Virus record (IMG/VR): IMGVR_UViG_3300030109_002113
Location: 1 to 29,069 of that record
From: a virus
DNA: 29,069 bases
Direction: 5' to 3' (one strand)
The notes beneath the pieces were generated by a model. The model saw only the letters and a program-made list of their open reading frames with translations, was not told where the DNA came from and made no database searches. Shown here piece after piece: positions 1,631 through 29,069 of this stretch. Numbering within the stretch: the first letter of the stretch is position 1; the number at the start of each line of letters is the position of its first letter. A program made the translations under genes and the position numbers.

Positions 1631-1855
1631 TTAATCATCCACTATAATTTTTACAGGGTATTGCTTTCCGTCAATTGTTTTTAAAAGCAGTTTCCCTTTG
1701 CGACATATCCATCTTTCTTTCCCACGCGGTGGGTCTGATCTTTCAATAATGCGTTTAGTTTTTAAACAATCACTAAGACTGTCTCGAGGAGTAAATTCAA
1801 GCAAGCTCCCAGCTGTTGTATACAGGTAAAGTACGAAACCAACAAATGTTTCCAT
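1631..1855 (-). CDS. Small hydrophobic N-terminus protein, unknown function
   Basis: I do not recognise a named function for this 74-aa protein. It begins METFVGFVLYLYTTAGSLLEF, which could be a weak membrane anchor or a beta-strand pair. It then has a basic, Cys-containing part (KTKRIIERSDPPRGKERWICRKGKLLLK). The ATG at 1855 is preferred because it lies one base after the previous stop; the longer in-frame reading overlaps the upstream coiled-coil gene by 35 bases. Its place between two TM/coiled-coil genes of the lysis island suggests an accessory role, which is inference only. Confidence 0.55.
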   Translation of the reverse strand: METFVGFVLYLYTTAGSLLEFTPRDSLSDCLKTKRIIERSDPPRGKERWICRKGKLLLKTIDGKQYPVKIIVDD

Positions 1856-1856
1856 T

Positions 1857-2279
1857 TTACTTACCGTTGATTTGTAGATGCCTTTGGGCATCCTTTAATT
1901 TTTCAACTGCGCTTCGTACTTCCATCATGTCAGTCTGCAATCGGGTAATGTTGACACTGTTGTTTGATCTGTCCTCAACCTTTGCTGTCAGCTTTTCTAA
2001 CTGACCGCTGATATGCTCAATCAGCATGAAGGCTTCTTTAACTGCTGGCGACTGAGGACGTTCAATGCGAAAGGTTGTGTTCTTATCAATGTCGAGCTTC
2101 AAGGATGCAACATGGCTGGCAATATCTCGCTCTTGCAAAGCAGCTTTTGTCGATAATTTATTAATCGATTCGATAATTTTTGCGTAGCCTAAAGCCCCGC
2201 AGCTCACAATTATCAATAGTGAAATTACGGTCTTCATAGGCATCTGCACGTTAGTGCTATCGCTTATCTTTGTGGTCAC
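1857..2279 (-). CDS. TM plus coiled-coil protein, unknown function
   Basis: This 140-aa protein has a membrane segment near the N-terminus (about residues 16-33, KTVISLLIIVSCGALGYA) and a long, mostly helical region with coiled-coil character at about 80-135. The segment TTFRIERPQSPAVKEAFMLIEHISGQLEKL resembles small proteins found near the tail and lysis genes of marine phages. I chose the GTG at 2279 because an AGGTGA sequence sits just upstream; ATGs at 2243 or 2237 have no visible ribosome site. It is one of four neighbouring genes with one TM and a coil, and could also be a spanin-like or inner-membrane accessory protein. Confidence 0.6.
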   Translation of the reverse strand: MTTKISDSTNVQMPMKTVISLLIIVSCGALGYAKIIESINKLSTKAALQERDIASHVASLKLDIDKNTTFRIERPQSPAVKEAFMLIEHISGQLEKLTAKVEDRSNNSVNITRLQTDMMEVRSAVEKLKDAQRHLQINGK

Positions 2280-2283
2280 AACG

Positions 2284-2829
2284 TCACCTAATCTTCGGAG
2301 CTGTGGATGCCCACCAGAGAAACCATGTCATTAAACCAACACAAACGAGAATGACAACAGCCTTACTGCCTTCAATCAAAACCTTATGCCAAAAAACACG
2401 ATCACGCTCTTTTTTTGTTTTTGCTGCTAGCCTTTGCTTTTCAATCCGCTCTGCTTTTTCTTTTTTGCGCTGCTCCCTTGTCTCTAGGATAACTGTCCAC
2501 GTTTTCTTTTCACCTTGAGCGACAGGCCACCGTTTATTAATTTCATTTTCAAGGTGTTTAAGTTCGACCTCCATTCTTTTTTGAGCATCAATTTCATTCA
2601 CAATAGTTGACAGGTCATCTTCCTCGCCACCGTCATGGGTACGTTGCTGAAGAATATTTTGGTTTTTTTCAGCTATTGTATCGGCTGGCTTTTCAGATCT
2701 GTTCTTTTCATGCGCCTCTTTTGCATGGAGCAGCGCATCCATAGATGACGCAATCGAGCTAATATCTTTAGCCCCTTTTAACACTAGTCTGGTGGCGCTG
2801 ATAGCAGCTGCTACAGTGACAGGATCCAT
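2284..2829 (-). CDS. Coiled-coil membrane protein with MDPVT N-terminus
   Basis: The 181-aa protein starts MDPVTVAAAISATRLVLKGAKDISS, has a highly charged helical middle (about residues 38-145), and ends in one strong membrane segment (about 152-174, AVVILVCVGLMTWFLWW). The MDPVTxA opening followed by Lys/Glu-rich coils is a pattern I recall from small proteins encoded near the tail genes of marine podoviruses; no function is established that I know of. Whether it belongs to the virion or to lysis cannot be told from sequence. The ATG at 2829 lies a few bases after the stop of the 28-aa membrane peptide. Confidence 0.62.
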   Translation of the reverse strand: MDPVTVAAAISATRLVLKGAKDISSIASSMDALLHAKEAHEKNRSEKPADTIAEKNQNILQQRTHDGGEEDDLSTIVNEIDAQKRMEVELKHLENEINKRWPVAQGEKKTWTVILETREQRKKEKAERIEKQRLAAKTKKERDRVFWHKVLIEGSKAVVILVCVGLMTWFLWWASTAPKIR

Positions 2830-2832
2830 TTT

Positions 2833-2919
2833 TTAAAAAGTTACCTGACTTGCAAGGATGAACCCAGCGAAAAACGCCAAGCACATTAACCCCCAGATTT
2901 TTAAATATTTGAATTCCAT
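2833..2919 (-). CDS. 28-aa single-TM peptide
   Basis: This very short ORF encodes a peptide opening MEFKYLKIWGLMCLAFFAGF. The start is basic (K4, K7) and residues 8-24 are almost entirely hydrophobic, so it looks like a one-pass membrane peptide. The ATG at 2919 lies one base after the stop of the upstream gene, AAGGG lies 7 bases before it, and the ORF fills the gap between its neighbours exactly. It may act as a holin accessory or antiholin, but that is inference. At this length the coding potential is not certain. Confidence 0.45.
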   Translation of the reverse strand: MEFKYLKIWGLMCLAFFAGFILASQVTF

Positions 2920-2920
2920 G

Positions 2921-3124
2921 TTATGCCCTTAAAACTAAAGTTGCTAACAGTAGAATGATTGCACCAGCTGCTGACATTAAGACTCTTTCAGTTCTTTTAA
3001 GCCGAGCGCAGATCATAGTATACCGTGATTCGCAGACGGCCTCATGTTTCAACAGGTGAGCCGAGAGCTTATTTAAATCTTTCGCGATTTGCGCTCCGTA
3101 GCTTTTGTTTAGTTGCGTAGCCAT
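2921..3124 (-). CDS. Small XhlA-like membrane protein
   Basis: This 67-aa protein has an N-terminal helical part with a HEAVCESRY motif (residues ~27-35), a basic stretch (CARLKRTER), and a C-terminal membrane segment (about 49-66, LMSAAGAIILLLATLVLRA). The plan of helix/coil then one C-terminal TM, and the HExxCxxR-type motif, resemble hemolysin XhlA-like proteins that sit beside holins. The ATG at 3124 overlaps the receptor-binding protein stop by one base (TAATG), so I prefer it to a longer in-frame start inside that gene. It opens the lysis island. Confidence 0.66.
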   Translation of the reverse strand: MATQLNKSYGAQIAKDLNKLSAHLLKHEAVCESRYTMICARLKRTERVLMSAAGAIILLLATLVLRA

Positions 3125-6100
3125 TATCTTGCCCTGTTGTTTGAAGAAAAGGCACTTTCTGCCCAGCAAGCATAAAGATACGTTTCACCGCTGGCATTAC
3201 ATTCACTGTCTGAGTTACGAATTTTAAAACCATTTGAAAAAATCGAAATCGCCCCACCTGAAGTACCTTCAACCTCAAGTGTATTTGCTCGTAAATACGC
3301 ATCTGCATCATTATAAGTTGAACGAGCATTATCATACATTCGCCAATTTCCAGTGCTGGTTAAATCGCGTATCAGTATGAAAAATGGTTTAAAACCTGTG
3401 TACACAAAGGCGCCATCTGTCGCATTTCCATTTCCAGAATATTTTCCAAAAGAGGAATGGCCCTCCACTTCACTCCATGCGTGACAAATTACAGGCTGAC
3501 TTGAAGGGTTGCTGTAGATGTGAGTGCCTACCCCTAGCACAGAAGTTGTTGGTAAACTTCCCCACTGGCGCAAATCACTAAAAATATTCGCGTCAGGGTC
3601 AGAGTCATTATTTAAAACTAAATAACGTCTATCTGGATTTGACATGTCCCTGTGCCAAACCATCCAAGCAGCAGCCGTATCTAAACGCCTCAACCAGTAC
3701 ATCGCTGGTTTAACCCCCAGCCCATGTTGTAAGGTTGATGCAGAGCCATTACCTGTAAACGATATTATTGAAAATCCCGCAGTTGCGTTTACACTTCGTT
3801 CAATATCTGTTGTCGATGAGTCAGAAGTTTTAGTCATACCTCCCGAAACTGTGGATGCAGAATTGCCCGCCCTCCAACATAGAGCCACATAATTCGCACC
3901 AGAATTATTGACGTTCGTATCTGTCCCTAGAGTAAATCCATTTGAGTTAAACGATTTTAACGTCTGTGCATCTGTTGATTGCGCTGGGCAACTTTCAATT
4001 GCAGCTGATTTTGTAACACCGCGAACAACATCGTAAATAAAATGATTTGTTGTTGCGTCCGTACTTTTAATCCATACAAAATCTGGCTGAAAATCTAAAG
4101 ACGTAATGGCTAATTCGCTTCCTGTACCTGCGTATTTTACAGCTGCGCAATGCTCCTTTGCATTGTCAACAGCACACGCTGTCATAGAAGATGTATTCAA
4201 CGTAGAAAATCCATTGGGTGGGGAGTATTTTAATCCATTCTGTCCTGTGTTTAAAATAGATGTATACGCTGCTCCATACCCAAGAACAGGCGTGTAGTCC
4301 GTATCTGTCAAATCCGTATATGCGGCATTGCTTCCAGCGGCTGGATCACCAGAATTTTGCCAAGTATTATTGATGCCCCACCAAATCTTATTGTTATCTA
4401 AATCTAGTGCTACTTGGAGAGTGTCATTAGCCCCGACTGCATTTCCATAAGATGTCCCCGAACCATCTTTCATTTTTTGTCCATTTGATGGATTATAGTA
4501 ATAAATTCCAGTAGAGTTTAAATTTGCAGACCTGTCTAAAGTTCCGTAATAACTGCCTTGGATAACACCAGTTGAACCACTTTGGTTTGTTTGATTAGTT
4601 AACTCCCAGTAAAATTTACCACTGGTTAATCGAGCAATAGAAAACTCAGCAGCATGGTCAGCTACATACACAGCTTTTAGATTGCCAGCAGAAAGTGTAA
4701 CATCACTGTTTCCGGCAATATTGACAGCCTCTGGGTTTATCCTTGCGTAGTTTCCTACCCCTGTTACTGTTTGAGTTAACTCTCCAAATCCTGTAGGTGC
4801 TGTTCCTGTCCATGAGCTTGAAGCAAACCTGAGTGTTCCAGTGCCACTTGCAGAACTATCACCTATAGCAACAAATAACCCTGACCCATCGTAACTGCGT
4901 CCGTTTGTCGTATTTGTAGGCATATTTGTTACGGCTGCATTTGTCGTTGTACCAGCAGCAATTTCACTTGCAGTTGCCGAGGATTGCCATGTACCATTTT
5001 TAGCAAACCACAAGTCACCGCCATTGGTCATATCAATAGCAACACCTATAACATCATTGGTTGTCCAAGTATCTCCATAAGCATCGCCACTACCAGCAGT
5101 AAGGGGATTTGCATACAATTTACCATTCGATTGATTATACAAAAAACCTTTGTTCGCACCGTTGCCACTTTCGTTATTTGCACAACTTCCTACAGCAACT
5201 CCTAAATACAATCCAGAAGACCCACCAGCTACAAATTCAAAATAAAACTTACCAGTAGAAGGAAGCGGAAAATTAACTTTGGTATTTGTGTCAACTCCAG
5301 CATCAGTACCTGTGTGGGTCAAATTTGCATTTGTTAAATTTATTGTAGAGTTTTTAGTTAATGGATTTAACGCTGGATACAAAGTAACGGCTTCGTCATC
5401 TTTGTTGGTACAGGTGTCAACAACAACACTATTTGTCCCTAAAGTAGATTTTGCTGTCCAATTGTTGCCTTCACCACTTGTATCAGTGCCGACATCTGAT
5501 CCTTGAAATTGTAATCGGAAACCATGATTGCCATAAGTAACTGATGGTTCTATTGGAACCCATATTCCTGTGCCTTCATTAACTTCGCCAAAAGAAGAAG
5601 GGGTTAAGGCCAAGCCGTCTACCCAAATGCAGTCTCCACCTAAAATAAAACCTGCTTCATTTCGAGAAGAGGTGCTAGAGTGGTTCATATCTGTCCCTAT
5701 TACTTGAGTGGTTGTTCCACTTGCATAAGCAAATCCTCGCATGACCTGATCTTGAACAGGCCAGTTAGCAGAGGATGTGTCCGTAATTTGTGTTCCATTT
5801 ACATAGAGCTTTATTCTATTTGTATCGGTGGCCTGTGTCGTATCAATGGAAACACAAAAATGGAAAAAACTGCTGGTATCGGTAAATTTTGGCGACCATG
5901 TTACATCGTCTTGACCAGCTGCAAGGTAAATATTTATTTGATCACTTGCATTAAAGGTGATTACATCATGCCCACCACTTCCACCAGCCGTACCATTGTT
6001 GGCACCAAATATACCTTGAGCTGCGGTTCCCAAAACAGTCCGTTTTATCCACGCACTAAATGTCCCCTTTGTAGCTAAAGTGGATGATCCAGATATGGCA

Positions 6101-26673: not shown

Positions 26674-26689
26674 GGGGGGGTGGGGGGGG
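26674..26689. repeat. G7-T-G8 homopolymer tract upstream of terL
   Basis: The + strand reads seven G, one T and eight G, 53 bases upstream of the terL start; the mRNA strand is C8-A-C7. No other run like it is visible in the window. It lies in the only sizable gap of the packaging module. It could affect terL translation, mark a packaging site or vary in length; none of these is shown. Confidence 0.8.
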
Positions 26690-27562: not shown

Positions 27563-28003
27563 TCAACGTAAGCTTTTATTACATTTATACCACAGCTCCA
27601 ACACAGCTCGATCAAACCTTCTTTTAACTGTCTCGGGGTGCATATTCATTAGCCGACCAATTTTCTTCCACGCAACACCACGTTGTCTCCGCGCAGCTGA
27701 ATGCACAGATGCCCAAAGCAATTTTCGGTCTGACACCTCGAGCAACATGCCAACATCCAACGCCATATCATAACGCGAGATCTCACGAGGCGTAGCTTTT
27801 GGTAACCTCGTTTCTGTTTCATTGTAACCAAAACTTAAATTAGGATCAGGTGCATAATCGGGCCAGCAACTCTTGACACTTAACCGCCTAACACTCGGCA
27901 ACTTTTTTTCTGTCTCAGCTGCCTCAAAAAACAATCCGGCTAACCCTGCAACATCTCGAACCTCATCGATAATATCCCTTGCTCGATCCTGTTTTAACCC
28001 CAT
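27563..28003 (-). CDS. DUF6362-like helix-turn-helix protein
   Basis: The 146-aa protein has an N-terminal helix (IIDEVRDVAGLAGLFFEAAE), a central RRLSVKSCWPDYAPDP segment, and EISRYDMALDVGMLLEVSDRKLLWASVHSAARRQRG. A C-terminal HTH (about residues 111-132, VAWKKIGRLMNMHPETVKRR) leads into AVLELWYK. The combination of S-WP, then RxxxALxxxxxL, then W-KIGR-x8-TVxRR is what I know of DUF6362. The HTH suggests DNA binding, perhaps in replication or late-gene control. The ATG abuts the methyltransferase stop. A hairpin terminator follows, making this the last gene of the upstream operon. Confidence 0.72.
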   Translation of the reverse strand: MGLKQDRARDIIDEVRDVAGLAGLFFEAAETEKKLPSVRRLSVKSCWPDYAPDPNLSFGYNETETRLPKATPREISRYDMALDVGMLLEVSDRKLLWASVHSAARRQRGVAWKKIGRLMNMHPETVKRRFDRAVLELWYKCNKSLR

Positions 28004-28630
28004 TTACGCAAAACCCCCAATTCGGTGCAGTTTCGTTAGACCCGCGCACCGAATGTCTATAGACAATTCGGTGCTTTCGGTGCTAACTGCCCGATCACCG
28101 TTGAGCACCGAAACGGTGCTTTCGGTGCTTTCGGTGCTACGAGAAAAGAACAAAGTTTGAGCTGGTTTTTGTGCGTCAAATAACAACCATGCGCAGTTTT
28201 CAAACCCTGCTTTTTTGTTTCCCATCCATGACACGCGCCCGACTGAAACAACCTTTATGCAATAACGCATGTGTTTTGCCATGCGTTTATTATGGATAAC
28301 ATCAGCATTCAGTAAGAGCCATGTCGGTGCAAGCTGCGATAACTGCGCAATTAAAGGGCTCAGAATATTAAAAGACCAAGGGGGATTGGTTATAAAGTAA
28401 TCCGCTTGCGTATCTGTAATATCGAGCGCGTCTTGGCCTGTGATAATATCGCCCTTTTTAATACAAATGTGTCCCGCGCTTCCTAAGTGCCAAATAAGAT
28501 CATCCTCTCCACAGCAGGGCTCTTCGTAGCGTACACTGTCTGGGAGATGGTTCAGTAAAGGAATAACCGCCTTGTAAGGCGTTGGATAAAAATCTTTTTC
28601 AATCCTTGGAAAACTACTGCGCTTACCCAT
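28004..28630 (-). CDS. Adenine-methyltransferase-like protein with repeat-encoded tail
   Basis: This 208-aa protein resembles small class I SAM-dependent (N6-adenine type) methyltransferases of phages and prophages: DFYPTPYKAVIPLL (13-26), EPCCGEDDL (37-45) as motif I, the catalytic NPPW (82-85), APTWLLLNADVIHNKRM, VVSVGRVSWMG and ENCAWLLFDAQ (145-154). In relatives motif I usually reads EPCxGDGxL; here the second glycine is Asp and the first Asp is Glu, so cofactor binding may be weakened. After residue ~160 the conserved fold ends and the tail contains STESTEST and STEST, encoded by the repeats at 28021-28137. I chose the ATG at 28630, which overlaps the RepA-like stop by 8 bases; a longer start inside that gene is unlikely. 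Confidence 0.82.
   Translation of the reverse strand: MGKRSSFPRIEKDFYPTPYKAVIPLLNHLPDSVRYEEPCCGEDDLIWHLGSAGHICIKKGDIITGQDALDITDTQADYFITNPPWSFNILSPLIAQLSQLAPTWLLLNADVIHNKRMAKHMRYCIKVVSVGRVSWMGNKKAGFENCAWLLFDAQKPAQTLFFSRSTESTESTVSVLNGDRAVSTESTELSIDIRCAGLTKLHRIGGFA
28021..28137. repeat. GCACCGAA/TTCGGTGC repeat cluster with two palindromes
   Basis: Seven copies of TTCGGTGC lie in 117 bp: five forward (28021, 28067, 28076, 28121, 28130) and two reverse (28046, 28105). The spacing of 9 in the 28067/28076 and 28121/28130 pairs gives tandem units. Positions 28046-28074 form a near-perfect 29-bp palindrome with one unpaired A; its centre GTCTATAGAC is itself palindromic. Positions 28104-28120 form a perfect 7-bp hairpin with loop AAA. 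It is read as the C-terminus of the methyltransferase gene. It may be an iteron/origin, an operator or a transcript hairpin. Confidence 0.9.
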
Positions 28631-29069
28631 TGGGAACCAGCCATAAAAATTCGTTCTCGAGCCCCATAAATTCATCTGCGACAAGTGAGCTGATCGCATC
28701 ATTAAACCGCGATCTTTTGTGTCGCGCATCACAGCTAATCTTGCCCTTTGACAGCTCGAAAAATTTATCAATCGGTAATCCCTTGCATGTTATCGGCAAA
28801 CCCAGCCTGTTGTCTTGAAGATCACCGCCAGCTCCAAGGTTAATCATCGCCTTTAATAATATCTTTTGATTAGCGCCTCGAGGCTTGCGCTTTTTTCGGT
28901 CTGACTCAGCCTTGTCTGCTTCTACGACTACGCAGCTGGTAATTGTTTTCCCGCGCTGGTTTGTGCCGATTTCTACAACTTTTAATTTAAACGCAAACTC
29001 GCCAGATATCTCCATCTCACGCTGCTTTGTCACTGTGGCAACGCTGACATCACCGCCTTTCTTAATCTC
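28623..29069 (-). CDS. RepA-like AAA ATPase / helicase, C-terminal part only
   Basis: The reading frame is open to the right edge of the window, and the visible 148 residues are the C-terminus of a larger protein. They include VTKQREMEISGEFAFKLKVVEIG, then TSCVVVEADKAESDRKKRKPRG and a winged-helix-like end (LPIDKFFEL, KRSRFNDAISSLVADEFMGLENEFLWL). VxKQRdxExxxxFxFxLxVVxlGxxxxGxxxTSCVV is the tail I associate with RepA-like (AAA_25-type) replicative ATPases of phages and prophages, whose Walker motifs would lie upstream. A GTG inside this stretch (29033) is not a likely start, because family homology continues before it. The stop overlaps the methyltransferase start. Confidence 0.72.
   Translation of the reverse strand, partial: EIKKGGDVSVATVTKQREMEISGEFAFKLKVVEIGTNQRGKTITSCVVVEADKAESDRKKRKPRGANQKILLKAMINLGAGGDLQDNRLGLPITCKGLPIDKFFELSKGKISCDARHKRSRFNDAISSLVADEFMGLENEFLWLVPNG

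Follow-up and report, generated by a model that had tools for sequence, protein, structure and literature searches.

Why should the end of a DNA methyltransferase-like gene be made of short DNA repeats that are translated as STE? The question is raised by a minus-strand gene at 28004–28630 (ATG at 28630; phrog_799, E = 5.7e-28) in the window, by which we mean the whole stretch of 29,069 nucleotides analysed here, an incomplete phage genome with minus-strand terminase, portal, capsid and tail genes. The start of this gene overlaps the end of a RepA-type primase-helicase gene, the 3′ part of which lies at 28623–29069 (minus strand, remainder outside the window) and encodes a predicted C-terminal winged-helix domain. 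On the other side, a gene for a DUF6362 helix-turn-helix-like protein (27563–28003, minus strand) adjoins the repeats. Further along, at 26674–26689 and upstream of the large terminase start, a run of G broken by one T is found. The answer that we favour, with a probability of about 0.8 judged from sequence comparison, is that the cluster is an iteron replication origin bound by the C-terminal domain of RepA itself.

The repeat cluster and the methyltransferase gene

The putative origin, an iteron cluster with a stem-loop, spans 28018–28139 and has no assigned strand. Between 28021 and 28137 it holds five copies of TTCGGTGC and two of GCACCGAA, and a whole-window search gave no other copies in all 29,069 bases. 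The first iteron (28021–28028, minus strand) is TTCGGTGC on the shown strand and GCACCGAA in minus-strand sense. The inverted iteron at 28046–28053 (plus strand) and the iteron TTCGGTGC at 28067–28074 (minus strand) are, in minus-strand sense, the right and left arms of a stem-loop, a 29-nt near-palindrome with a CTATAG centre at 28046–28074 (no strand assigned), which changes symmetrically among relatives. A further TTCGGTGC follows at 28076–28083 (minus strand). In the 17-nt hairpin AGCACCGAAACGGTGCT (28104–28120, no strand assigned) a degenerate iteron copy faces the inverted iteron GCACCGAA at 28105–28112 (plus strand), and two more copies of TTCGGTGC are found at 28121–28128 (minus strand, 9-bp step) and 28130–28137 (minus strand), the latter being the first past the methyltransferase core. 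The architecture is that of two groups of ~9-bp iterons: the first has three direct copies leading into inverted copies, and the second two direct copies and then a stem-loop that ends in an inverted copy. All five direct and two inverted copies, the near-palindrome and the hairpin are present where the first-pass annotation had placed them, and in no other part of the window.

Order-1 Markov simulations of the window (n = 50) produced a largest cluster of 6 copies (mean 3.4), while 7 copies of the 8-mer were observed within 134 bp, so the copy count in the window is by itself just moderately unusual. Of 1470 control windows, each of 400 bp and taken from related loci, just 0.07% hold seven or more copies of any 7-mer. 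As DNA, the element is predicted to fold much more stably than its shuffles, with a z of −5.0, and of −6.1 for the palindrome by itself. An iteron origin would be expected to adjoin an AT-rich unwinding region, and against this the GC content is 53% in the element and 43% in the window; the 13-nt core of the stem-loop, with 31%, is the sole AT-rich part of the element.

The cluster had been described as lying directly downstream of the RepA gene. In the window this does not hold, as the repA stop is at 28623 and the cluster begins ~485 bp beyond it, past the methyltransferase core; it does lie directly after repA in close relatives without the methyltransferase gene. The conserved part of the methyltransferase stops at 28139 and the remainder consists of STE repeats encoded in frame by the cluster. 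A homologue with 51% identity (L002) ends within three residues of the repeat start, in agreement with the earlier remark that the STE repeats fall after the conserved enzyme fold. Since this homologue stops where the iterons start, the STE tail can be taken as putative origin DNA read in frame. The methyltransferase gene would then be a later arrival between repA and the origin and the tail a by-product, which would explain the odd repeat-coding end of the gene.

Recurrence of the layout in phages with RepA-type genes

The same repeats and stem-loop occur between a repA-type gene and the next gene, with no methyltransferase, in four relatives (L005, L013, L038 and L010). In L010 and L028 the cluster follows the helicase gene with the same iteron and a different downstream gene, which is not DUF6362. 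At least five copies of one 7-mer within 400 bp after the repA stop were counted in 70% of 107 loci, many of them mutually related, against 0.6% of the 1470 control windows, and in 74 of the 107 the stretch after repA holds the short repeat with the highest density anywhere in the fetched locus. The leading repeat differs widely, with 30 different 7-mers among the loci, and within one phage all copies change together; the commonest step is 9–10 bp. For instance, the leading repeat after the repA stop is ACCCTATTT in L039, ACCGCAAAA in L049 and ACACCGCAA in L111, while the Roseobacter phages have CTACAAA (CRP-811 and CRP-823) or GTATAAA (CRP-821 and CRP-831).

A CTWWAG-centred stem with at least three further pairs was found in 55% of the loci, as 28 distinct stems, against 0.07% of controls. 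The palindrome arms in relatives change symmetrically (TGTC/GACA, CGTC/GACG, TGCC/GGCA). Formal covariation, calculated on four palindromes only, is weak (51 of 500 shuffles were equally good), and the symmetric pairing is therefore based on the wider CTWWAG count.

Among cultured phages, this layout, or one close to it, was observed in Rhizobium phages 16-3 and RHph_Y3_1, Alteromonas phages PB15 and XX1924, Idiomarinaceae phage 1N2-2, Vibrio phage 1.210.O, Salicola phage CGphi29, E. coli phage sortkaff and Salmonella phage Lumpael, the last four with low leading 7-mer counts of 3 to 5. In sortkaff, which infects E. coli K-12, and in Lumpael, GTAAC-type repeats and strong CTAAAG/CTTATAG stem-loops follow the primase-helicase genes (L206 4246–4731 and L207 4243–4497, respectively). 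The layout may serve as a sequence rule for locating the replication origin in many phages in which it is unannotated, cultured ones included.

The pattern is not universal. No 5-copy cluster was found at the expected place in 30% of the 107 repA loci; no cluster was found in the repA locus of L187, L199, L201, L203 and L122, and the element was not seen in Mycobacteriophage Vista and Caulobacter phage RW, which have RepA-like helicases. In L134, L136, L138 and L139 the cluster is displaced from repA by inserted genes. Genes appear to insert at the junction of repA and the putative origin: a methyltransferase-like gene occupies it in the window (28004–28630) and a distant methyltransferase homologue in L138/L139 (L138 3829–4338), a gene resembling, by eye, a QueE-type radical SAM enzyme in L134 (3939–5265), and several genes in L136 (3951–6219). 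In L142, L165, L169 and L172 the repeats start within the repA 3′ end, so the putative origin and the C-terminal coding sequence overlap there.

In a second, divergent group (L041–L048, L050–L052, L054) GCGC-rich repeats precede DUF6362; in L048 these repeats (~3800–3970) follow a gene for a 681-aa protein (1737–3782) which by eye is Toprim/RepA-like. Perhaps this group has the same design with a different helicase lineage. Of the other viral contigs with TTCGGTGCTTTCGGTGCT, many have nothing but long tandem runs and were judged unrelated (e.g., L017, L018, L023, L025, L035–L037); in L017, L018, L025, L035 and L037 the long 9-bp tandem runs contain the same 18-mer.

RepA as the likely initiator and the alternatives

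A comparison of closely related Roseobacter phages bears on the question of what binds the repeats. The DNA identity of CRP-823 and CRP-821 is ~94% along repA, falls to 57–77% only where the C-terminal domain is encoded and in the iterons, and is back to 88–97% in the gene after the iterons. In CRP-831 and CRP-821 the block of C-terminal domain and iterons is 92–100% identical and the N-terminal parts of RepA differ. For 66 dereplicated loci, shared iterons were predicted by C-terminal identity with an AUC of 0.90 versus 0.83 for helicase identity, and in a residual test on these loci the effect of C-terminal identity beyond that of helicase identity was matched in 0 of 2000 permutations. L010 and L015 have the same iteron despite ~30% identity in the C-terminal domain; the RepA C-terminus of the window is ~68% identical to that of L015. 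The iterons and the part of RepA that would read them apparently change together between lineages, and CRP-821 and CRP-823 offer a natural experiment, as the origin and the specificity of its initiator seem to have shifted together between them.

The C-terminal domain of RepA from the window is predicted as a winged helix with pLDDT >90 over most of the domain. VIA-align placed it closest to the solved winged helices of CAP, MukF, MCM and ORC with Z of 8–9, values that common folds also reach, so that the winged-helix reading combines predicted topology with Z; Foldseek gave no match for the predicted domain at E <0.001. The helicase of L015 has an AAA_25 match and a weak Toprim match, and its RepA-type ATPase a weak sequence match to the RSF1010 RepA helicase (E = 0.003). 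From the co-variation of C-terminus and iterons and the predicted winged helix, RepA is the likely initiator. The likely iteron binder is its C-terminal winged helix, as modelled, rather than DUF6362.

Several short repeats lie beside a putative initiator gene, and the predicted DNA-binding domain of the encoded protein diverges in step with them, as would be expected of an iteron origin. The first-pass annotation had named iterons near an initiator gene as a known origin layout, and the persistence of the layout across relatives supports an origin. What is observed is the position, conservation, structure and co-variation; that RepA binds the site, that the DNA melts, that the helicase is loaded and primers are made, and that replication starts there, we infer along the following lines. 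The initiator would be the RepA-type primase-helicase encoded just upstream of the cluster; its C-terminal winged helix would bind the iterons, the stem-loop would be extruded or melted, the helicase ring would be loaded there, and the primase part of RepA would make the first primers. GC skew was discarded as evidence for the origin, since the skew of CRP-811 tracks the strand of the genes and is uninformative.

The repeats could instead be selected as peptide, the STE units forming either a tail with a function or a small protein. In the window and in L005 and L013 the STE frame indeed runs uninterrupted from an ATG that overlaps the stop codon of repA, and the sense frame is open in 49 of 63 clusters against 25 in base shuffles, which by their nature break the repeats. 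Nevertheless, in L038 and L010 the frame is broken and the DNA repeats are kept, the peptides encoded by relatives with other iterons are unrelated in sequence, and the methyltransferase homologue ends ahead of the tail, which makes a selected peptide hardly credible. The first-pass annotation had suspected that the DNA form matters more than the peptide and had proposed to compare the locus across relatives; the repeats and stem-loop persist in L005, L013, L038 and L010, where methyltransferase and STE tail are missing, and this argues for its suspicion.

Operator, terminator, packaging-site and phase-variation readings, of which the first and last had been offered earlier as alternatives, fit less well than a replication origin. 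As an operator, the repeats would be bound by an HTH protein, DUF6362 or another, that regulates the gene downstream. DUF6362 resembles a helix-turn-helix protein, the element lies just upstream of its gene in the window and many relatives, and with genes inserted (L134, L136, L138) the element stays by DUF6362 and not by repA. The element also exists without DUF6362, with an identical iteron in L010/L028 and with another downstream gene in the CRP phages, so DUF6362 was rejected as the binder; a phage-database search with DUF6362 gave no match. Moreover, the downstream proteins of CRP-823 and CRP-821 are 89% identical and their iterons wholly different, and a promoter scan shows no excess in the region. 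We regard an operator as improbable. The strong predicted stem-loops with symmetric changes, in a cluster mostly between co-oriented genes, might also suggest a structured RNA in the operon (terminator, processing site or translational control). An intrinsic terminator would be a GC-rich stem and then a T-run; here no T-run follows the stems, the terminator scan found no terminator-like site in the element, and an Rfam search of it gave no match. RNA folding also leaves unexplained why several direct repeats change in concert and follow a DNA-binding domain, and a structured RNA is distinctly improbable. A packaging (cos/pac) or partition site is suggested by the position of the element one gene upstream of the small terminase gene in the window, but the CRP phages have no annotated terminase gene beside it, the annotated cos of Rhizobium phage 16-3 is ~4 kb away, and the partner in co-variation is a helicase C-terminus; such a site is very improbable. 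Nothing in the analysis pointed to phase variation.

The origin reading can be extended, tentatively and at a little under an even chance, to a large set of tailed phages of several bacterial groups. They would share one origin design, a RepA-type primase-helicase with 3′ iterons and a common CTWWAG stem-loop. Winged helix and iterons would together act as a cassette that determines specificity and can be exchanged; it would diversify much faster than its flanks, set replication compatibility groups and perhaps escape origin-directed attack. What drives the diversification of phage origins thereby becomes a testable question.

Relation to known replication systems

In the open-licence literature we found analogues and no description of the design of RepA, 3′ iterons and CTWWAG stem-loop. 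In RSF1010, the RepA helicase of which is the sequence relative found here, oriV likewise has iterons and stem-loops for priming; RepA, RepB′ and RepC are three separate proteins and RepC binds the iterons. In the model of plasmid pRN1 and phage BIP-1, the origin also lies 3′ of a primase-helicase gene, the C-terminus is a winged helix, and the stem-loop is conserved in structure and not in sequence (PMC4234260). That system differs in having an SF3 helicase with an archaeo-eukaryotic primase, no iterons and a ~100-nt stem-loop (PMC4234260), whereas L015 has the AAA_25 and weak Toprim matches. The record of Streptococcus phage Sfi21 (AF115103) has an annotated 302-bp origin, non-coding and 3′ of a primase gene, which holds inverted iteron sets; the likeness observed is one of position and of repeat arrangement.

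By analogy, the origin may work like those of PICI, PLE and P4 alpha, in another helicase family. In the pri-rep-ori of PICI/SaPI, where rep-ori drives plasmid replication, the origin is immediately 3′ of the initiator gene and has two iteron sets that vary between elements (PMC6092414). Those are satellite islands with PICI pri/rep genes and an AT-rich melting site between the iteron sets (PMC6092414); here the genomes are those of tailed phages, the window having capsid, portal, terminase and tail genes, and a CTWWAG stem-loop is present. RepA/ori modules of the Vibrio cholerae PLE swap, as those described here appear to, and a possible driver of this exchange is a phage nuclease directed at the origin, though the PLE initiator is of the RepA_N type with iterons of ~30 bp and ours is a primase-helicase (PMC8263062). 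The alpha protein of phage P4, like the RepA proposed here, joins primase, helicase and an origin-repeat-binding winged helix in one protein (PMC4234260), with a helicase of a family different from the RepA type.
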